DNA from: Paraglaciecola polaris LMG 21857
GTDB lineage: Bacteria; Pseudomonadota; Gammaproteobacteria; Enterobacterales; Alteromonadaceae
DNA: 64,000 nt
Assembly: GCF_000315055.1 (NCBI RefSeq)
Contig: NZ_BAER01000044.1
Coordinates: 186,001-250,000, forward strand
Reading direction: 5' to 3'
Below, piece by piece: positions 10,587 through 40,799 of this stretch. Numbering within the stretch: the first letter of the stretch is position 1; each line of letters starts with the position of its first letter. Made by a program: the position numbers and the translations under genes. The notes beneath the pieces are model-generated. The model saw nothing but the letters and a program-made list of their open reading frames with translations. It was not told where the DNA came from and searched no databases.

Positions 10587-12173
10587 TTACTTGAAGGTGT
10601 GAGCCGCAAAGGCGTTACCGTCGCTGCGAGGATCCGTCGCTGCTGAAACGGTATCATCGGCGCGCATTACCACTGCACCGGCATGCCCCATTAACTCATT
10701 ACACGAATCGACAAGTGCAATGTCGTGCCCTTTGCTGGCGAGATCGTGTTGAATGTCCTCGGCTAGGTCTCGCTCAATTTTGAGGTTGTGACTTTCATCG
10801 CCCCACGTTCGGCCTAATAACCAACGACCCAAGCGAATTGATTCTGGCAATGATTTTTGTTGGTAAATGTAGCGTGCAAATAGTGCCGCTTGCGTTTGTG
10901 GTTGGCCTTCTCCGCCCATAGTGCCATAGCTTAAACGACGACCATCTTTTAGCTCGGCAAACGCTGGATTCAAAGTGTGAAATGGCTTCATGCCAGGTGC
11001 AAGTTGCTGTTGATGGCCGGCTTGCAATGAGAAAGACGTACCACGGTTATTCCACACGATACCGGTTTGTGGAGATACCACGCCACTACCAAATTCCCAG
11101 TAAATGCTTTGAATGTAACTGACCATTCTGCCTTCGCTGTCACAGGCACCCATCCAGATGGTGTCCCCCGGTTTAGCCTGATGTGGCCACGGCAGAGCTT
11201 GCTCTAAACTAATATTGGTTAGCATGGCATCAATTGATTCGACAGAGAGTAAGCTTTGCAACTCGATACTCAACCGGCTTTGATCCGCCACATACTGATT
11301 GCGTTTAATGAAGGCTTGTTTAGTGCATTCAACCAATAAATGTACAAACTCGGCTTCGTTTGTGGCTAGGTGCTGCACTTTGTCAAATAACGCCAGTATC
11401 AATAGTGAGGCAATACCTTGGGTCGGCGCGGGTAGATTATACAGTTTACCCACTGAGGTGTTGACTGAAAGCGGCGTCACCATCTTAGCTTCATACGCTT
11501 TGATGTCTTCAAGGGTAATGGGAGAGCCTGCGGCTTGTAAATCTTCAGCTAACGCTTGCGCTATTTCGCCGTTATAAAAATCGTTAAGCCCATTTTCGGC
11601 GAGCGTAGTGAGCGTTTTAGCAATAGCTGGCAGTTTGAGTATTTTGCCTTTTTGGAGGCTTTTACCTTTTATTAGAAATTGCTCGAAATGTGGAATCGTA
11701 GACAAATCATCAAATGTTTTTTCACTGGCATCTTGTAGGCTTTGCGTGACCTCAATACCCCATTGTGCTTGACCAATCGCCGGGGCGAGCAGTTCACTTA
11801 AGGGGATTCCGCTTTGCCATGTATGGCTTACCTCTAATGCTTTTTGCCAACCTGCCACAGCACCAGCCATGGTTAATGCGGCTTTTGGGCCACGAGAAGG
11901 GATCGCAGAATGTTGTGCGTAATAAGCAAGGTCGGCTTTAGCGCATGCGGTGCCGCTAGCATCAATTGCCACTGGGGCTTTACCTGGCTCACTAATCAAC
12001 CAAAAGCCGTCGCCTCCTAAGCTGTTCATATGTGGGTATACCACAGAAATTGATGCGGCTGCCGCGACCATTGCTTCGATGGCGGTTCCGCCATGCTGTA
12101 ATACATTTTGACCTACTTGGCTAGCCGCATAATGAGGGGCGGTAAAGCCAACCGGTCGTGGTGAATTGCTCAT
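10587..12173 (-). CDS. Gamma-glutamyltransferase-family Ntn hydrolase, probable oxamate amidohydrolase (HpxW-like)
   Basis: A 528-residue member of the gamma-glutamyltranspeptidase family without a signal peptide. The expected self-cleavage site and nucleophile is Thr338 in KPGDTIWMG, followed by SYIQSIYWEFGSGVV and the glycine-rich GTMGGEGQPQTQ. The closest characterised match I know is HpxW of Klebsiella, oxamate amidohydrolase, which ends uric-acid catabolism by making oxalate and ammonia. The operon with allantoate amidohydrolase and ureidoglycine aminotransferase supports that role. It overlaps the upstream amidase gene by ATGA, so the two are translationally coupled and may work together. 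Confidence 0.78.
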   Translation of the reverse strand: MSNSPRPVGFTAPHYAASQVGQNVLQHGGTAIEAMVAAAASISVVYPHMNSLGGDGFWLISEPGKAPVAIDASGTACAKADLAYYAQHSAIPSRGPKAALTMAGAVAGWQKALEVSHTWQSGIPLSELLAPAIGQAQWGIEVTQSLQDASEKTFDDLSTIPHFEQFLIKGKSLQKGKILKLPAIAKTLTTLAENGLNDFYNGEIAQALAEDLQAAGSPITLEDIKAYEAKMVTPLSVNTSVGKLYNLPAPTQGIASLLILALFDKVQHLATNEAEFVHLLVECTKQAFIKRNQYVADQSRLSIELQSLLSVESIDAMLTNISLEQALPWPHQAKPGDTIWMGACDSEGRMVSYIQSIYWEFGSGVVSPQTGIVWNNRGTSFSLQAGHQQQLAPGMKPFHTLNPAFAELKDGRRLSYGTMGGEGQPQTQAALFARYIYQQKSLPESIRLGRWLLGRTWGDESHNLKIERDLAEDIQHDLASKGHDIALVDSCNELMGHAGAVVMRADDTVSAATDPRSDGNAFAAHTFK

Positions 12174-33826: not shown

Positions 33827-34294
33827 TTACATTTGAGACTGCAAGTAGTTAGAAAGCCCAATACGCTTAATTAACCCTAGTTGCTGCTCTAACCAATGAG
33901 CATGATCCATTTCAGTATCATCTAATAACACCATAAGCATGTCACGGGTCACATAATCTTGTTCAGATTCGGCAACAGCAATAACTTCTTTAAGTTTATC
34001 ACCCACTGCGTATTCAACCCGCAAGTCACTCTCTAGCATAGAAGGCACATCTGTACCTATAAGCAAACCATCGCGATCAACCATATTAGGTGTGCCCTCG
34101 AGGAACAAAATACGTTCGATAAGCTTAGTGGCATGACCTTTTTCATCATCGAATTCATGATTAATGCGTTCGTAAAGTTTGTTTAATCCCCAGTCTAAAT
34201 ACATTTGAGAATGCACAAAGTATTGATCCATCGCTGCTAATTCATAAGCGAGTAGAGCATTCAAGCCTGATATAACGTTACTTTTACCTTGCAT
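33827..34294 (-). CDS. bfr: Bacterioferritin, ferroxidase-type subunit
   Basis: A 155-residue bacterioferritin. By alignment with E. coli Bfr it keeps all ferroxidase ligands (E18, E51, H54, E94, E127, H130; see HEFDDEKGHAT and TEMDHAHW), but the heme ligand Met52 is replaced by lysine. It should therefore oxidise Fe(II) without binding heme in homodimers. The gene before it encodes the complementary subunit and the two overlap as TAATG, so equal synthesis and a mixed 24-mer are likely. Confidence 0.92.
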   Translation of the reverse strand: MQGKSNVISGLNALLAYELAAMDQYFVHSQMYLDWGLNKLYERINHEFDDEKGHATKLIERILFLEGTPNMVDRDGLLIGTDVPSMLESDLRVEYAVGDKLKEVIAVAESEQDYVTRDMLMVLLDDTEMDHAHWLEQQLGLIKRIGLSNYLQSQM

Positions 34295-34773
34295 TAGTCT
34301 TCCCCTTCAATAACTTGGGCTTGTAGATAATTTTGTAAACCCATATGTTTAATTTGATATTGCTGAGTTTCCAGCCAATCCAAATGCTCTTCTTCGTATT
34401 CAAGAATGTCTTCTAATAACTCACGGGAAACGTAATCCTGTTCTTGTTCACATAAGCTGATGGCATTTTTTAATACTGGGATCTGATGTTGTTGAAATGT
34501 CATGTCACATTGCAACATTTCTTCCGTTTCTTCACCGATAAGCAATTTACCGAGCATTTGCAGGTTCGGTAAACCTTGCAAAAACAAGACACGCTCAATA
34601 ATGGCATCAGCTTGTTTCATGTCCTTAATGGATTTTTTGTAGCACTTTTTGTCCAGCGCATTCAATCCCCAATTTTTATACATTCTAGCATGCAAAAAAT
34701 ACTGGTTAATTGACGTTAACTCACCCGTTAATACCTCATTTAAAGCAGAGACGACTTTTTTACTGCGCAACAT
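34294..34773 (-). CDS. bfr: Bacterioferritin, heme-binding subunit with degenerate ferroxidase centre
   Basis: A 159-residue bacterioferritin. The heme ligand Met52 is kept (KSIKDMKQAD), but ferroxidase ligands are changed: Glu51 to Asp, His54 to Gln and Glu94 to Gln, while Glu127 and His130 remain. It would hold heme for electron transfer and iron release but oxidise iron poorly. Paired bfr genes with this division of labour are known in Pseudomonas, Neisseria and Magnetospirillum. It is transcribed first and coupled to the ferroxidase subunit gene. Confidence 0.92.
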   Translation of the reverse strand: MLRSKKVVSALNEVLTGELTSINQYFLHARMYKNWGLNALDKKCYKKSIKDMKQADAIIERVLFLQGLPNLQMLGKLLIGEETEEMLQCDMTFQQHQIPVLKNAISLCEQEQDYVSRELLEDILEYEEEHLDWLETQQYQIKHMGLQNYLQAQVIEGED

Positions 34774-35044: not shown

Positions 35045-36121
35045 TTACACCGCTGTGTTCGTTTCTAGTGTCATGGCGGTATCCAATACTATCCCAGTAG
35101 ACGGACGGCCAATGCCTTTTAGTAATCGACCCAAAATATCAGCTCCGGTAATAAGGCGGGGTAATTCAGAAGACCACACCACTATGACATCAGCATGCAG
35201 CACTTCATCAGAACTGACATCAATATCTTGAGTGATTTTCAGCCGTTGCATCGCATCACCCAAGGTGCAGTTTTTATCTTCAATGATAAGCGGTCGATGA
35301 CAAAATTTATAAGCATCACAAGGAATGTTATCCACTAAGGTGGCGCGAATAAACCCATCGGCGTCCAACATCAGTAATGGGTTACGCTGCTCGTCTAATA
35401 ACAAAACCCATTTATGACCTGATGCGTTGACCGCATTAACAAAATCAGCAAACCCTTCACTTCCTTGTTCCGGCAATAGGGGTAAATCAAGTTTACAAGG
35501 CATGGTCAGCATGCTTTTTGGATCAATCACTTCGCCTTCTTCGTTTACTGTGATGTTATCGATCTGCAAAAAGTTAAGTGCACCGACACCTTGTACGTGC
35601 TCAACATCGGTTTCGTCGGCATCTATGTGCGCGTTTATAATGGCGGTTAACTCTTTTTCACGAAAATAGGTGATACCTTCACGGCCTAACCAGCCATCTA
35701 AAATCAACGCCGTTGGTTTGGCGACTATGAATAACAGTACTTGGTAGAATCGAATGATAGGCGTGAGCTTAGATGCCACTTGTAATGCATTGCGTGAAAA
35801 ATAAGCTTGGGGAAAAATTTCACCCAAAAAAGTGATAACGATAGTGGAAAACATAAACGAATACATGCCTGCTAGGACAGAATCGGACAGTAAAGTGAGT
35901 AAAACGTTTATGGATACGTTGCCCCATAATATCGTTGATAACAAAAAATTAGAGTCTTCTCGCATGGACAGGATCACCGATGCGTTCGTGTTGCCTTGTT
36001 TGGCTTCAACATCTAATTGCAAGCGGCTCAAGCTGAAAAACGCTAAATTTAAGCCAGAAAAAATAGCCGACTGGGTGACACAAAACGCGATACCCAACCA
36101 AATCAATATATCTACAGTCAT
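35045..36121 (-). CDS. CNNM (DUF21) family transporter with CBS-type region
   Basis: A 358-residue inner-membrane protein. The DUF21/CNNM domain fills the first half, with three to four helices (for example FCVTQSAIFSGLNLAFFSLS and STIVITFLGEIFPQAYFSRNA). A cytosolic CBS-pair-like region starting at ITVNEEGEVIDPKSML follows, and there is no CorC_HlyC domain. CNNM/CorC proteins move or regulate Mg2+ and other divalent cations. It is divergent from the small gene-cmpX-sigX operon and has its own copy of the same TGTGAC-N17-CGTCAA promoter, linking it to that regulon. Confidence 0.82.
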   Translation of the reverse strand: MTVDILIWLGIAFCVTQSAIFSGLNLAFFSLSRLQLDVEAKQGNTNASVILSMREDSNFLLSTILWGNVSINVLLTLLSDSVLAGMYSFMFSTIVITFLGEIFPQAYFSRNALQVASKLTPIIRFYQVLLFIVAKPTALILDGWLGREGITYFREKELTAIINAHIDADETDVEHVQGVGALNFLQIDNITVNEEGEVIDPKSMLTMPCKLDLPLLPEQGSEGFADFVNAVNASGHKWVLLLDEQRNPLLMLDADGFIRATLVDNIPCDAYKFCHRPLIIEDKNCTLGDAMQRLKITQDIDVSSDEVLHADVIVVWSSELPRLITGADILGRLLKGIGRPSTGIVLDTAMTLETNTAV

Positions 36122-36211: not shown

Positions 36212-36240
36212 TTGACGAGTCTGCAGGCCATAAAGTCACA
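36212..36240 (-). promoter_or_regulatory. Candidate ECF (SigX-type) promoter for the CNNM gene
   Basis: On the minus strand, -35 TGTGAC (36240-36235), 17-bp spacer, -10 CGTCAA (36217-36212), about 90 bp before the CNNM start. Same architecture as three plus-strand promoters in this locus. Confidence 0.65.
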
Positions 36241-36305
36241 CAATATGTGTTTTTCTTTATTGCTATTCGCGGTGCCGATAACGCCGATAAAAATTAGTGG
36301 TGTAA

Positions 36306-36334
36306 TGTGACTTTTCAGACGTTTTGTTCGTCCA
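36306..36334 (+). promoter_or_regulatory. Candidate ECF (SigX-type) promoter of the cmpX-sigX operon
   Basis: -35 TGTGAC (36306-36311), 17-bp spacer, -10 CGTCCA (36329-36334), about 83 bp upstream of the first gene. Implies autoregulation of the sigma factor. Confidence 0.72.
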
Positions 36335-36416
36335 GTAACTAAGGACATAAGCTCAAGATTATACCCACTTAGATGAATACCAGCACCAACAGGTTATTTC
36401 CAGTAGGAGTAAATAC

Positions 36417-36659
36417 GTGAATAATGAATATTATCAAGAACTTGAACGAAAACTTGCTGAGGATATCTTAGCCAATCAGGTGCTTCCTGAGCCTGAAGCA
36501 CTGGCAGCAAAAGTGACTAAACAAGATAAATCGAAAGAAATAGTCCGCCTTGGCGTGCATGGCGTGCATGGCGTGTTTTCTATGCTACTGACCTTATTTG
36601 CACCCTTGATGATGAGTCACAGTAAAAAATTATTAAAGAAAAAGGTTAAATCCCAATGA
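36417..36659 (+). CDS. Small protein in CrfX position
   Basis: An 80-residue protein with no domain I recognise. The N-terminal half is acidic and helical (YYQELERKLAEDILANQ), then LGVHGVHGVFSMLLTLFAPLMMSH forms a hydrophobic stretch ending in a lysine-rich tail, so it is probably membrane-associated. The internal GVHGVHGV comes from a short DNA repeat. In Pseudomonas a small gene, crfX, occupies the same place before cmpX and sigX; size and position match, but homology is unproven. GTG start with GGAG; ATGA overlap with the channel gene. Confidence 0.75.
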   Translation: MNNEYYQELERKLAEDILANQVLPEPEALAAKVTKQDKSKEIVRLGVHGVHGVFSMLLTLFAPLMMSHSKKLLKKKVKSQ

Positions 36660-37486
36660 AAGAAAATATCAGTATTTGGTTTGAAGCGGTTTCCAGTTCG
36701 CTTACCACGTTATTAGCGGAAATTGCCGCGTTCCTGCCATCTTTATTTGCCGCATTTATCATATTGTTGGTCGGTTACTTTATATCGCGGGTGTTAAGGT
36801 TTGCCGTTTTCGCTGTGCTTAAAAAAGTTGGCTTAGATAAGTTAGCCCAAGCAACTGGGATCGATCAGCAGTTATCCAAATTCGGTAGCCAGGTATCAGT
36901 ATCGAGTACCTTAGCTATGTTAGTGTTTTGGATCACCTTTCTGGTTTTTATTGTGACCGCTGCGGACTCTCTTGGTTTATCTCAGTTAGGCGAAACAATG
37001 GATCAGTTTCTGCGTTTTATTCCTAAAATCATTGCCGCTACTCTTATTCTACTTTTTGGCCTCGCGGCTGCAAACTTAATCAAAAATGCTATTTTCAATG
37101 CAGCCAAAGCGGCCGATTTCGATTTTGCCCGGCCCCTGTCTAAAGCATCTTATGGCTTGGTGGCGATTCTGACCTTGTCATTGACCATCAATCAATTGGA
37201 TATCAACACAGTATTGCTGGATACCATTATCGCGATAGCGTTGGGCACGCTGGGTGTTGCTACGGCTATTTCTTTAGGTTTAGGCAGCCGAGAAGCCTCG
37301 AAAAATATTATTTATTCCTTATACATATCCGACACGGTAAAGGTCGGCGATACCGTGACCACCAAGGATGGCATTAAAGGGGATGTGGTGGAAATTACTG
37401 CGGTAGTAACGATTATTCGAACCCAAGATGAGAGCCTTAAAGTGATTGATAATAAATCCTTTCTAGATGGCCTAACCATACATTAG
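36656..37486 (+). CDS. cmpX: Small mechanosensitive channel-like protein (CmpX-like)
   Basis: A 276-residue MscS-related membrane protein with conserved TM-helix repeats (PF05552): IAAFLPSLFAAFIILLVGYFISRVLRF and FIPKIIAATLILLFGLAAANLIKN. Pore-like segment IIAIALGTLGVATAISLGLGSR is followed by a short beta domain (VKVGDTVTTKDGIKGDVVEI). It matches CmpX-type channels, which in Pseudomonas lie directly upstream of sigX and affect SigX activity. Here the sigma factor gene begins five bases after its stop. It may sense membrane tension and feed this into the sigma factor, which is an inference. Confidence 0.85.
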   Translation: MKENISIWFEAVSSSLTTLLAEIAAFLPSLFAAFIILLVGYFISRVLRFAVFAVLKKVGLDKLAQATGIDQQLSKFGSQVSVSSTLAMLVFWITFLVFIVTAADSLGLSQLGETMDQFLRFIPKIIAATLILLFGLAAANLIKNAIFNAAKAADFDFARPLSKASYGLVAILTLSLTINQLDINTVLLDTIIAIALGTLGVATAISLGLGSREASKNIIYSLYISDTVKVGDTVTTKDGIKGDVVEITAVVTIIRTQDESLKVIDNKSFLDGLTIH

Positions 37487-37491
37487 CAATA

Positions 37492-38037
37492 ATGCATGGG
37501 CCGAATCATTTGCAGCATTTAACGGATATTCAATTAGTCAAACGTACCTTGCAACGCCGGGGTGATGCATCGTTGGCGTTTGCTAAATTGTATGGCCGAT
37601 ACCAAGCTAAAATCGCAGCATATATTGCAGCGAAAGTCTTATACAACCCGTCTTTAGTGGATGATGTTTTACAAGACACGTTTATGACCGCTTGGCATAA
37701 ATTAGAGCAACTAAAAGAACACGATAAATTCTTTCCTTGGGTCGTCACTATTGCTCGTAATACCGCCATGGATGTATTACGAGAAAAGAAGCGCGTGGAC
37801 GACATTAGCCACTTATTGAATCAAGACGAACCCGAAACTGGAGAAGAGCTAGATCTTGGGGCGACAGAGCAAATGTTAGCCAATCTTGACCCCGTTGATC
37901 GAGAGATTGTTGTAATGAAAGCGGTATTAGAATGTTCATTTGAAGAAATAAGTTTGCAATTGGGCTTAGCGCTAAGTGCAACTAAAATGCGGTATTATCG
38001 TGCCCTTGATAAAGTAAAGTCCGACGCCGTTATTTAG
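37492..38037 (+). CDS. sigX: ECF sigma factor (SigX-like)
   Basis: A 181-residue extracytoplasmic-function sigma factor. Region 2 is visible in FAKLYGRYQAKIAAYIAAKV and DDVLQDTFMTAWHKL, with WVVTIARNTAMDVLR as region 2.4, and region 4 in LDPVDREIVVMKAVLECSFEEI with SATKMRYYRALDKVK. No anti-sigma gene is adjacent, as for Pseudomonas sigX. Gene order with cmpX before and an oprF-like gene after also matches Pseudomonas. Four similar promoters in the locus are its likely targets, including its own operon. Confidence 0.88.
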   Translation: MHGPNHLQHLTDIQLVKRTLQRRGDASLAFAKLYGRYQAKIAAYIAAKVLYNPSLVDDVLQDTFMTAWHKLEQLKEHDKFFPWVVTIARNTAMDVLREKKRVDDISHLLNQDEPETGEELDLGATEQMLANLDPVDREIVVMKAVLECSFEEISLQLGLALSATKMRYYRALDKVKSDAVI

Positions 38038-38081
38038 CCTGCAACACCCCACATCAAACTTTCCATTAGTCCAAAATCAAT

Positions 38082-38110
38082 TGTGACTTTTTCAATACGC
38101 CTTACGTCTA
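38082..38110 (+). promoter_or_regulatory. Candidate ECF (SigX-type) promoter of the LapA-like gene
   Basis: -35 TGTGAC (38082-38087), 17-bp spacer, -10 CGTCTA (38105-38110), about 73 bp before the LapA-like start. Confidence 0.7.
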
Positions 38111-38182
38111 TTCATTAAAGCAACGTTATGTAAATACACTGGTCGTGCGTGGAAATGCGCATTTTATAATAGGAGTTAATCT

Positions 38183-38386
38183 ATGAACTTAAAGCGATAT
38201 ATCTACCTAACCTTGGGTGTTTTGTTCGGGATATTTGTACTGCAAAATATGCAGCTAGATCACGTCAGCTTCTTATTCTGGGATTTTGCGATGCCACGTT
38301 TGCTTCTTATCCTCAGCACACTATTAATCGGGATTGCGATTGGCGTATTGGTTCCATTTAAAAAATTTATACCCGGTAAAAAATAG
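38183..38386 (+). CDS. LapA-domain (DUF1049) small membrane protein
   Basis: A 67-residue protein with two membrane helices around the DUF1049/LapA hallmark FVLQNMQLDHVSFLFWDFAMPRLLL. LapA of E. coli works with LapB in controlling lipopolysaccharide synthesis; here no lapB is adjacent. AGGAG precedes the ATG. It has its own sigma-X-type promoter and lies between the sigma factor and the OprF-like gene, pointing to an envelope stress role. Confidence 0.83.
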   Translation: MNLKRYIYLTLGVLFGIFVLQNMQLDHVSFLFWDFAMPRLLLILSTLLIGIAIGVLVPFKKFIPGKK

Positions 38387-38396
38387 ATTGCGACGC

Positions 38397-38425
38397 TGTG
38401 ACTATTTTAAAACACGCATCGTCTA
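38397..38425 (+). promoter_or_regulatory. Candidate ECF (SigX-type) promoter of the OprF-like gene
   Basis: -35 TGTGAC (38397-38402), 17-bp spacer, -10 CGTCTA (38420-38425), about 93 bp before the OmpA/OprF-like start. Confidence 0.7.
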
Positions 38426-38517: not shown

Positions 38518-39618
38518 ATGAAAACACACACACTAGCTCTTGCGATATCGTTTGCGTTTATTGGCGCTTACGCCAATGCACAAGAAGCAAATGAAAAAGA
38601 AATATGGGGTGCTATTTTTGCTGAGCATTATTCTGTGTACCCTGAAAAATTTGAGCCAAATACCGCATATGATAGTGGTTTAGGCTGGGGTGCAGAAATT
38701 GGCATGAAACTGAATCCTAGTTGGGGTTTCCGATTTGAATTTGCCAAATTAGACCTAGACGCGGAACGTGGCAGTGGCAACATCACAGGTGAGCGTATCG
38801 GTGTGGATGCTTTATATTTTATTGAACAAAGTAACTACTATATTTTTGCTGGTTTGAAGAATCAACGCTTAGATGAAAGCTATCGCATGGCGGATTTAGG
38901 TTTGGGTGCGCATTGGCACATAAACGACAAATGGAAAGTCGTCACTGAGCTAGCAGGATATTATGACTTCGGGCAAGGTAACCCTGAGTACAGCGCTAAA
39001 TTAGGTTTAGCCTATAGTTTTGGGAAAACTGCTTCAAAAGGTGTAACGAAAGACTCAGATAATGATGGTGTCATTGACCAACGTGATTTATGCCCAAACA
39101 CGCCTTACGGCACAGCAGTGGATGTAGACGGCTGTACACTAAAAGCCATGGACAGCGACAATGACGGCGTGGTTGATGGTCAAGATCAATGTGCTAACAC
39201 ACCAATCAACGATAAAGTTGATGTTAAAGGTTGTAGTGTTTTTACTGACGAGTCATTGACTATGTCATTGAAGATTTTGTTTGATAACAACTCAAGTTTG
39301 TTAACCAACATTGATGTGGAAAGCGTAGATGAATTCGTCGCGTTTATGCGCCGCTACGGTACCACAAATGCTGTTATAGAAGGTTATGCCTCGGCGCCGG
39401 GTACGGACGAATACAATATGCAGTTGTCAGTTGAACGTGCTAAAGCAGTGCGCCAATATTTGATTGACCAGCACGGTATCAACGGGGAGCGTTTAGAAGC
39501 CGTAGGTTATGGTGAAACTAAACTGTTGGATAAAGCCAATACCCGTGAAGCGAATAAGAAAAACCGTCGTATTGAAGCCCACGTTACCGCCACGGTTAAA
39601 ATTGCTGTGACCAAGTAA
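38518..39618 (+). CDS. OmpA/OprF-like outer membrane protein with TSP3 repeats
   Basis: A 366-residue outer membrane protein: signal peptide (about 22 residues, cleaved near AYANA-QE), an eight-stranded beta-barrel to about residue 175, two thrombospondin type 3 calcium-binding repeats (DSDNDGVIDQRD and DSDNDGVVDGQD, with paired cysteines), then a C-terminal OmpA peptidoglycan-binding domain (IEGYASAPGTDEYNMQLSVE and ANKKNRRIEAHV). It ties the outer membrane to the wall. Position after cmpX-sigX mirrors oprF in Pseudomonas. A strong terminator follows. Confidence 0.92.
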   Translation: MKTHTLALAISFAFIGAYANAQEANEKEIWGAIFAEHYSVYPEKFEPNTAYDSGLGWGAEIGMKLNPSWGFRFEFAKLDLDAERGSGNITGERIGVDALYFIEQSNYYIFAGLKNQRLDESYRMADLGLGAHWHINDKWKVVTELAGYYDFGQGNPEYSAKLGLAYSFGKTASKGVTKDSDNDGVIDQRDLCPNTPYGTAVDVDGCTLKAMDSDNDGVVDGQDQCANTPINDKVDVKGCSVFTDESLTMSLKILFDNNSSLLTNIDVESVDEFVAFMRRYGTTNAVIEGYASAPGTDEYNMQLSVERAKAVRQYLIDQHGINGERLEAVGYGETKLLDKANTREANKKNRRIEAHVTATVKIAVTK

Positions 39619-39702: not shown

Positions 39703-39758
39703 ATGGCACAATAACCATCAGTGTATATCTCTTGCCGAGAAGACATGACGGCGGTCGT

Positions 39759-40799
39759 ATGAAAAATGTTGTTAATTCGTTCAATTTACCACAGGTATTT
39801 CATGTGCAATCACTCATAAATTATTCGTTATCTTGTGCACTTGCGTTTACGACGGCGGCAGGTGCCGCGCAGCAATTAGGTTCAGGAGAGAAAACCATCG
39901 AGCAGTGTTTGCTCAAACAAATGGAATTGTCGTCTGATGACGTTACGCTGGGCGAGTTACGGTTAATTTGCGCACAAGACAACGATAACCGATTACGTAA
40001 ACGTGATCGACTGGAACATAGGGCGTCACTTAATCCCTTTGCATTATTGCCCCACAAACCCAACTATTTATTACCTGTTACATTTGCCAACATCAGTAAA
40101 CGGCCATACGGCAGTGATCCCAAAGCTGAGAAGTACCAAGATACAGAAGCTAAATTTCAGATTTCGTTAAAGTACCTAGCGGTTGAGGATTTAATGTGGG
40201 ACGGCTTAGATGTACAAGTTGCATTTACGGTGGCGAGTTATTGGCAAGCCTATAACGGTGAAATATCAGCCCCCTTTAGGGAAACAAATTACGAGCCTGA
40301 GATCATTTTTAATTATAGCCGCCCTTGGACAATACTCGGACTACCAATAGACCAAACTTACATTTCACTCAATCATCAGTCCAACGGCCAGACTGGAGAG
40401 CTGTCACGCAGCTGGAATCGCATCATTGGAGGCGTGGTTTTTGCTCAAAATGCGAATGTGACCTGGGGGTTACGTACTTGGTGGCGGATACCTGAAGATG
40501 ACAAGGTTAGCCTAGACGATCCAGAGGGAGACGATAATCCCTTTATTGAACGTTATATGGGGTATGGAGAACTTGGCGCACTCTGGAGCTTTTCTGACAA
40601 CCACAGCTTGGAACTACTGCTGCGTAATAACTTTAGAAGTGATAACCGCGGTGCCATTCAGCTCGGCTGGACCTTCCCTATTACGCGCCACTTGCGGGGC
40701 TACGTAGAGTATTTTAATGGTTATGGAGAGAGCTTAATTTATTATAACCAGCATACCGAGCGATTAGGCATTGGGGTTAAACTAACCAACTGGCTATAA
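39759..40799 (+). CDS. pldA: Outer membrane phospholipase A (OMPLA)
   Basis: Outer membrane phospholipase A1 of about 346 residues. The catalytic triad of OMPLA is visible: His and Ser in LNHQSNGQ and Asn in SRSWNR. The C-terminus ends in aromatic residues (LTNWL), typical for barrel insertion. The N-terminal leader is long, with a hydrophobic stretch (INYSLSCALAFTTAAGAAQ) that fits a signal peptide. ATG at MKNVVN is preferred to a TTG 27 bases upstream. The enzyme degrades misplaced outer-leaflet phospholipids under envelope stress. Confidence 0.9.
   Translation: MKNVVNSFNLPQVFHVQSLINYSLSCALAFTTAAGAAQQLGSGEKTIEQCLLKQMELSSDDVTLGELRLICAQDNDNRLRKRDRLEHRASLNPFALLPHKPNYLLPVTFANISKRPYGSDPKAEKYQDTEAKFQISLKYLAVEDLMWDGLDVQVAFTVASYWQAYNGEISAPFRETNYEPEIIFNYSRPWTILGLPIDQTYISLNHQSNGQTGELSRSWNRIIGGVVFAQNANVTWGLRTWWRIPEDDKVSLDDPEGDDNPFIERYMGYGELGALWSFSDNHSLELLLRNNFRSDNRGAIQLGWTFPITRHLRGYVEYFNGYGESLIYYNQHTERLGIGVKLTNWL

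Follow-up and report, generated by a model that had tools for sequence, protein, structure and literature searches.

A putative SigX-type, self-activating regulon covering CNNM and MgtE cation-transporter genes in Paraglaciecola

A stretch of 64,000 nucleotides from the marine bacterium Paraglaciecola polaris LMG 21857 (contig NZ_BAER01000044.1, positions 186,001 to 250,000 of the forward strand; hereafter the window) carries four copies of a promoter-like element, TGTGAC-N17-CGTC, in and around an operon for a small protein, a CmpX-like channel and an extracytoplasmic function (ECF) sigma factor. Judged from sequence, the locus is with high probability a SigX-like envelope-stress sigma module, in which the sigma factor would read the element and thereby switch on its own operon and a short list of further targets. 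The regulon is very probably of SigX type and self-activating, and would cover two families of cation transporters (CNNM and MgtE). Comparison between genomes establishes the element and its conservation, shows it in the autoregulatory position and in company with the sigma/CmpX pair, and yields the target list; we infer that this sigma factor is the one that reads it.

Putative promoter elements at the SigX-like locus

The four putative SigX-type promoters lie at 36212..36240 on the minus strand, before a CNNM gene (TGTGACTTT-N14-CGTCAA); at 36306..36334 on the plus strand, before the small gene-cmpX-sigma operon, the autoregulatory position (TGTGACTTT-N14-CGTCCA); at 38082..38110 on the plus strand, before a LapA-like gene (TGTGACTTT-N14-CGTCTA); and at 38397..38425 on the plus strand, before an OmpA-like gene (TGTGACTAT-N14-CGTCTA). 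An earlier, sequence-only reading of the window had named these places and strands correctly, and its spacing of 73-93 bp before the genes needs slight correction: measured between the second hexamer and the start codon, the distances are 90 bp (CNNM), 82 bp (small gene), 72 bp (LapA-like) and 92 bp (OmpA-like).

The gene content is also as that reading had it. The CNNM-domain membrane protein, a putative divalent-cation transporter of 358 aa, is encoded on the minus strand (35045..36121; PF01595, 118.8 bits). On the plus strand follow an 80-aa open reading frame (ORF) at the position that CfrX holds in Pseudomonas, a putative regulator of the sigma factor (36417..36659); a CmpX-like MscS-type channel of 276 aa (36656..37486; PF05552 and PF00924; 34% identical to CmpX of the pseudomonad genome G220); the SigX-like ECF sigma factor of 181 aa (37492..38037; PF04542 and PF08281); a LapA-like membrane protein of 67 aa (38183..38386; PF06305 at 26.8 bits, under the Pfam cut-off of 28); and an OmpA/OprF-like outer-membrane protein of 366 aa (38518..39618), with an OmpA C-terminal domain at 71.7 bits and an OprF membrane domain at 23.7 bits against a cut-off of 23.5.

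The four sites are the only exact TGTGAC-N17-CGTC matches in the window. The whole genome has 11 exact matches with N17, of which this locus packs four into 2.2 kb. With up to one mismatch allowed, the window holds 7 matches against a shuffle mean of 2.25, and at least 7 were reached in 2 of 100 shuffles. The sites also agree in letters outside the search pattern, with TTT following TGTGAC and TAnT following CGTC. A scoring matrix was made from 37 sites of six other genomes carrying this sigma factor, with no site of the window's own genome, and it gave the four sites the top four ranks in the 64 kb (35.1, 30.5, 22.9 and 21.2). The runner-up place in the window, within a gene, scored 12.9, and the top of 20 random 64-kb sequences was 11.4. 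A motif at window position 10787 was not taken as a promoter, being internal to a gene.

Across 44 sites (43 exact, plus the one-mismatch site before rimK in the window's genome) the consensus reads TGTGACTTTtt-N12-CGTCTAnT. Compared pairwise between genomes, the sites are 96% identical in the TTT and 79% in the three bases after CGTC; the figure is 47% for the spacer and 55% for the flanks.

Conservation and targets in Paraglaciecola

This sigma factor is carried by 7 of 22 genomes of the genus, the six others having copies 86-93% identical to that of the window. All seven share the gene order and the motif, except that G006 lacks a CNNM gene of this kind. A second SigX type was found in four further genomes (G001, G004, G016 and G019), and neither type in the remaining 11 of the 22 (search at E 1e-45). 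CmpX follows the same division: it is present in 11/11 genus genomes with either sigma type, and among the other 11 only a distant match was found in G010 and G018 and none in nine (E 1e-40). A scan of named genomes gave eight loci, of which four are near matches (86-92%), namely those of Paraglaciecola chathamensis, P. mesophila, P. sp. 20A4 and a metagenome-assembled genome labelled Colwellia. Laboratory strains carrying the sigma factor include P. mesophila KMM 241 and P. chathamensis S18K6. The last (L273, labelled uncultured Colwellia) has its sigma factor at Paraglaciecola-level identity (86%) and is either a mislabelled bin or a case of transfer.

Conservation of the motif in relatives, which the sequence-only reading had proposed as a test, was examined and did not refute it. 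In the sigma-carrying genomes the element precedes the small gene in 7/7, the LapA-like gene in 7/7, the CNNM gene in 6/6 that have it (including G002, whose site lies 221 bp upstream) and the OmpA-like gene in 5/7. Sharing of one promoter by the four transcription units, the sigma operon itself among them, is upheld, with the OmpA-like gene as a partial exception.

The regulon reaches beyond the four sites first proposed. The seven sigma-carrying genomes have 53 copies of TGTGACT-N16-CGTC against 21 of the control, and the other 15 have 21 against 53; for TGTGACTTT-N14-CGTC the totals are 41 and 7, respectively. Of these 41, 36 lie upstream of six target genes: the small gene (7), the lapA-like gene (7), mgtE (7), CNNM (6), gss (5) and rimK (4). 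The gss product is a glutathionylspermidine synthetase/amidase (PF03738 with CHAP). The other five lie inside a maf-like gene (4; G000, G006, G007 and G008) and an RND-like gene (1; G015), both named by eye, and were excluded as targets. The maf-like-gene motif (L081:3445, L121:1998, L122:1961 and L123:2001) stands 197 bp upstream of an RNase G/E-like gene (by eye) in 4/7 genomes, probably a coding coincidence.

The targets away from the locus were followed through their orthologues, in part with AGTC accepted as well as CGTC. In sigma-carrying genomes the motif is upstream of mgtE in 7/7 and of gss in 5/5 genomes having that gene, and upstream of the rimK paralogue it is exact in 6/7 and has one mismatch in the seventh. 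The link to cation transporters that the earlier reading drew is supported. In genomes with neither sigma type the motif was found before rimK at 0/11 loci (10 genomes), before gss at 0/3, before CNNM at 0/2 and before mgtE of this subtype at 1/2. The second rimK copy of the seven sigma-carrying genomes has no motif (0/7), and 19 loci of other mgtE copies have none either (0/19). Pooled, 24/25 orthologues with the sigma factor and 1/18 with neither type have the motif (Fisher 7e-10, kinship ignored).

Two arrangements of target genes were seen elsewhere in the genus. In G017 two TGTGACTTT-N14-CGTC sites stand back to back between mgtE and an AstE-like gene (by eye; L268:597 on the minus and L268:611 on the plus strand). 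In G017, G019, G004 and G003 (L307, L308, L309 and L310) CNNM and rimK lie head to head with no motif; the CNNM-RimK pairing therefore exists independently of the promoter.

Beside the locus, two neighbouring ferritin-like genes (window 33827-34773; Pfam run on one), about 40-43% alike, adjoin it in 7/7 sigma-carrying genomes. A phospholipase A1 gene (PF02253; window 39732-40799) follows the OmpA-like gene in 7/7, and the window copy has no motif directly upstream.

Comparison with Pseudomonas and other ECF loci

The locus was compared with Pseudomonas cmaX/cfrX-cmpX-sigX/oprF, whose SigX is ECF102 according to passages of PMC8999054. The two share the order small gene, MscS-type channel, ECF sigma factor and OmpA-type gene, with a cation-transporter gene next door; in the window the CmpX-type channel is directly upstream of the sigma gene, and an OprF/OmpA-type gene is at the locus by its domain scores. 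They also share TGTGAC-N17-CGTC before the small gene. A match to sigX was found in 51/59 Pseudomonadaceae genomes, and among the 30 Pseudomonadaceae sigX loci listed the element (N17 or N18) is upstream of cfrX in 29 (28 N17, 1 N18), as it is before the operon of the window's type. Its CGTC lies about 20-34 bp ahead of the first possible cfrX start in 28/29 measured loci, the remaining one being a wrongly picked frame. This distance would fit the 13-nt cfrX 5' untranslated region reported in a P. aeruginosa paper that calls the promoter not yet validated.

There are also clear differences. The window has a divergent CNNM gene with its own motif where Pseudomonas has CorA (cmaX), a LapA-like gene between the sigma and OmpA-like genes, and an own motif before the OmpA-like gene, which none of the 30 listed pseudomonad loci has. 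The earlier reading had likened the transporter to cmaX, and a cation transporter is indeed next door in both. In the sole Pseudomonas-family genome inspected for this, the CorA gene lies on the strand of the motif and stops immediately ahead of it, and P. aeruginosa cmaX is placed under AlgU in a passage of PMC7641640, so that a transporter with a SigX-type promoter is a difference from Pseudomonas.

The association of the element with CmpX extends to a survey of ECF loci: TGTGAC-N16-18-CGTC lies within 1.5 kb at 40/50 loci with cmpX and at 0/70 without. On distinct places, after removal of repeats (L056, L240, L239 and L237 with cmpX; L009, the same as L247, without), the counts are 38/46 and 0/69. 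At seven of the eight distinct cmpX loci that miss the motif, it lies farther out or takes the form AGTC or CGTT. One further locus (L176, G135) has two divergent TGTGAC-N18-CGTC elements, at 1301 on the minus and 1323 on the plus strand, before a small gene-cmpX-sigma operon whose sigma frame continues into other sequence near the contig end.

In published work, passages of PMC3832394 report that expression of cfrX, cmpX, sigX and oprF falls in a P. aeruginosa sigX mutant. The SigX promoter consensus is termed 'not precisely defined' in a 2020 paper (the passage concerned is in PMC7641640), and a SigX motif is shown as a logo in Fig 2 of PMC4362757. The motif is not claimed here as new for Pseudomonas. 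A literature search of titles and abstract openings, with subscription papers mostly outside its coverage, found no description of the present regulon. Acinetobacter SigAb, sometimes annotated sigX, is likewise an ECF sigma factor with a compact direct regulon; it differs in recognising GTCAAC/CGTT and in having AabA/AabB anti-sigma proteins, and the main text of that paper has 0 occurrences of the word mechanosensitive (PMC12153292).

A second SigX type in Alteromonadaceae

The second SigX type of the genus is also present in G023, and a similar one in G445, of the same family. Among 295 genomes of the order, only four have sigma matches above 200 bits (G023, G445, G022 and the window's). Second-type loci hold a CfrX-like gene, cmpX and the sigma gene, although in G004 the small gene is absent from the filtered ORF list. 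Compared with the window (G001, G004, G016, G019 and G023), the sigma factors are 26-28% and the channels 30-31% identical. Together with G445 these loci share the module with TGTGAC-N17-CGTC or -AGTC.

G004, G023 and G445 differ from the window in having an OmpA-domain gene at the head of the operon (domain tested in G023 only). The element ahead of this gene is TGTGAC-N17-CGTCTA in G023 and G445 and TGTGAC-N17-AGTCTA in G004 (by eye). In G022, TGTGAC-N16-CGTT faces both cfrX and a divergent OmpA-type gene.

The second-type stretch of G001 and G016 contains CNNM, gss, rimK and MscS-like genes, the latter named by eye and the first of them apparently shortened; that of G019 contains CNNM, MscS-like genes and two MgtE-domain genes, with rimK a few kb on under its own TGTGAC-N17-CGTC. 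Thus, in some second-type loci, the sigma gene has as neighbours gene types that carry the motif in the window's type. TGTGAC-N17-AGTC faces rimK in G001 and G016, and TGTGAC-N17-CGTC is ahead of mgtE in G001 and G019. In the second-type SigX cluster of G019 (L174:9120-11296), two MscS-like genes flank the genes for an MgtE protein and for a distinct MgtE_N/CBS protein that lacks the transporter domain. In G001 and G016 (L171:2199 and L173:1313) an exact TGTGACTTT-N14-CGTC stands between rimK and the next genes, directed away from rimK.

The second-type small protein is homologous to pseudomonad CfrX (hhalign E 7.5e-9), unlike that of the window, for which homology was detected neither to pseudomonad CfrX (hhalign E 0.12) nor to the second-type protein (hhalign E 0.089), and which has no Pfam or NCBIfam match. 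Its predicted structure, two helices at low confidence (predicted local distance difference test 64, predicted template modelling score 0.27), is not informative. The earlier statement that the locus has no anti-sigma gene is nevertheless doubtful, because the small gene occupies the position of CfrX, a proposed anti-sigma factor (in the relevant passages of PMC8999054). The broader claim of a cmpX-sigX-oprF-like locus in an alteromonad is supported.

Assignment to SigX and contrary evidence

The best NCBIfam model for the sigma factor is SigX (NF007222; 90.8 bits, and 89.9 in the genome search), and in a tree of 61 rows the window's seven sigmas group with the second type, G022 and pseudomonad SigX (support 97/90). 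The following observations count against the reading of the locus as a SigX-type regulon. The curated cut-off of the SigX model, 194 bits, is far above the score of the window's sigma factor, which is about 30% identical to Pseudomonas SigX; the sigma factor is called SigX-like here and is not assigned to the family of the SigX model. A quick tree of 70 rows was unresolved, with the window's seven joining a long-branched ECF sigma factor, and the 97/90 tree was obtained only after removal of nine long, short or truncated rows: E_L026 (only 19 aa), seven with long or odd branches (E_L258, E_L055, E_L058, E_L069, E_L054, E_L052 and E_L057) and D_G135, whose sigma frame continues into other sequence.

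On the side of the promoter, bare TGTGAC-N16-18-CGTC shows no genome-wide enrichment (19 against 29 for a reversed control), and as a genome-wide marker it was dropped in favour of a pattern that requires TTT after TGTGAC. Identity between genomes in the two boxes (99% and 100%) is partly an effect of selection, because most sites were found by those letters. The target counts are not independent, because the seven sigma-carrying genomes are close kin. The OmpA-like promoter is absent in G002 and G006 (220 bp upstream scanned), the gss genes of second-type genomes have no motif (0/4), and the oprF side is without TGTGAC-N15-19-CGTC/T in the 30 listed pseudomonad loci (0/30). Finally, G017 has two motifs before mgtE, with no SigX-like sigma or CmpX found in this draft of 190 contigs and 92% completeness.

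Discussion

Taken together, these data support a model in which the small gene-cmpX-sigma operon would supply a putative sigma-restraining small protein, an MscS-type channel and the ECF sigma factor. The sigma factor would recognise TGTGACTTT-N14-CGTCTAnT and switch on its own operon in positive feedback, the divergent CNNM, the LapA-like and the OmpA/OprF-like genes at the locus, and, at a distance, an MgtE transporter, a RimK-like ligase paralogue and the bifunctional glutathionylspermidine synthetase/amidase (gss). CmpX and the small protein would hold or release the sigma factor on membrane disturbance: a disturbed membrane may change them, and the freed sigma factor would then enter the feedback loop. 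The output would adjust divalent-cation transport (CNNM and MgtE, which by their families and matched domains we take to be Mg2+ carriers), polyamine chemistry (gss), RimK-type ligation and the outer membrane (OmpA-like and LapA-like). Control of lipopolysaccharide, as in the earlier reading, is faintly hinted at by the sub-threshold LapA match.

The sensing step has a competitor that is compatible with the promoter part of the model: the regulon may be real and answer Mg2+ or ionic conditions through its transporters, CmpX not being a tension sensor. Three transporter families (CNNM, MgtE and CorA) are among the neighbours or targets, and cmpX overexpression in P. aeruginosa left sigX and cfrX expression unchanged (reported in passages of PMC10965496). 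Conversely, CmpX is the constant partner of either sigma type in the genus, sigX transcription is lower without cmpX (as cited in the same passages), P. aeruginosa SigX responds, at the level of sigX too, to membrane stiffening and cold (in passages of PMC7641640), and CfrX, CmpX and OprF have been proposed as a mechanosensing complex (in passages of PMC8999054). We regard the ionic alternative as rather doubtful, yet far from negligible.

It is improbable that the element is the promoter of another or general sigma factor, with the SigX-like sigma a mere neighbour. The window's genome does have other ECF sigma genes (seven matches including this one), and the motif stands before mgtE in G017 in a genome with no recognisable SigX-like sigma. 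Against this, the motif tracks the sigma/CmpX pair across two families, being absent from all 70 other ECF loci, and marks orthologous upstream regions almost only where the sigma gene is present, with the kinship of the genomes to be borne in mind. That TGTGAC is the half-site of a CRP/Vfr-type activator and CGTC coincidental is scarcely credible and was rejected, for although TGTGA is a CRP half-site, whose palindromic second half TCACA stands six bases on, the full palindrome is present in 0/44 sites and TCACA within one mismatch in 3/44, and the second box, CGTC, keeps a constant distance from the first and in most cases has TA after it.

A SigX-like sigma factor reading its own promoter thus remains the preferred explanation. 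An element kept across Pseudomonadaceae and Alteromonadaceae makes both the activation of SigX and its promoter consensus directly testable. Since the same element stands ahead of the sigma factor's own genes and of metal-transport and envelope genes, the target list can be read from DNA; the compact list in Paraglaciecola predicts start sites and supplies reporters, and it directs attention to two components that would bear on control of the sigma factor, CmpX and the small protein. More tentatively, and at somewhat less than even chances, SigX modules may form an ancient, exchangeable circuit linking the state of the membrane to the supply of divalent cations. On this view the promoter and the pair of sigma factor and channel would have stayed constant across the two families while the transporter was swapped (pseudomonads having CorA, alteromonads CNNM and MgtE) and chemistry of the polyamine and RimK types was recruited, and in the window's branch the role of CfrX would be played by an unrelated or unrecognisably changed small protein.

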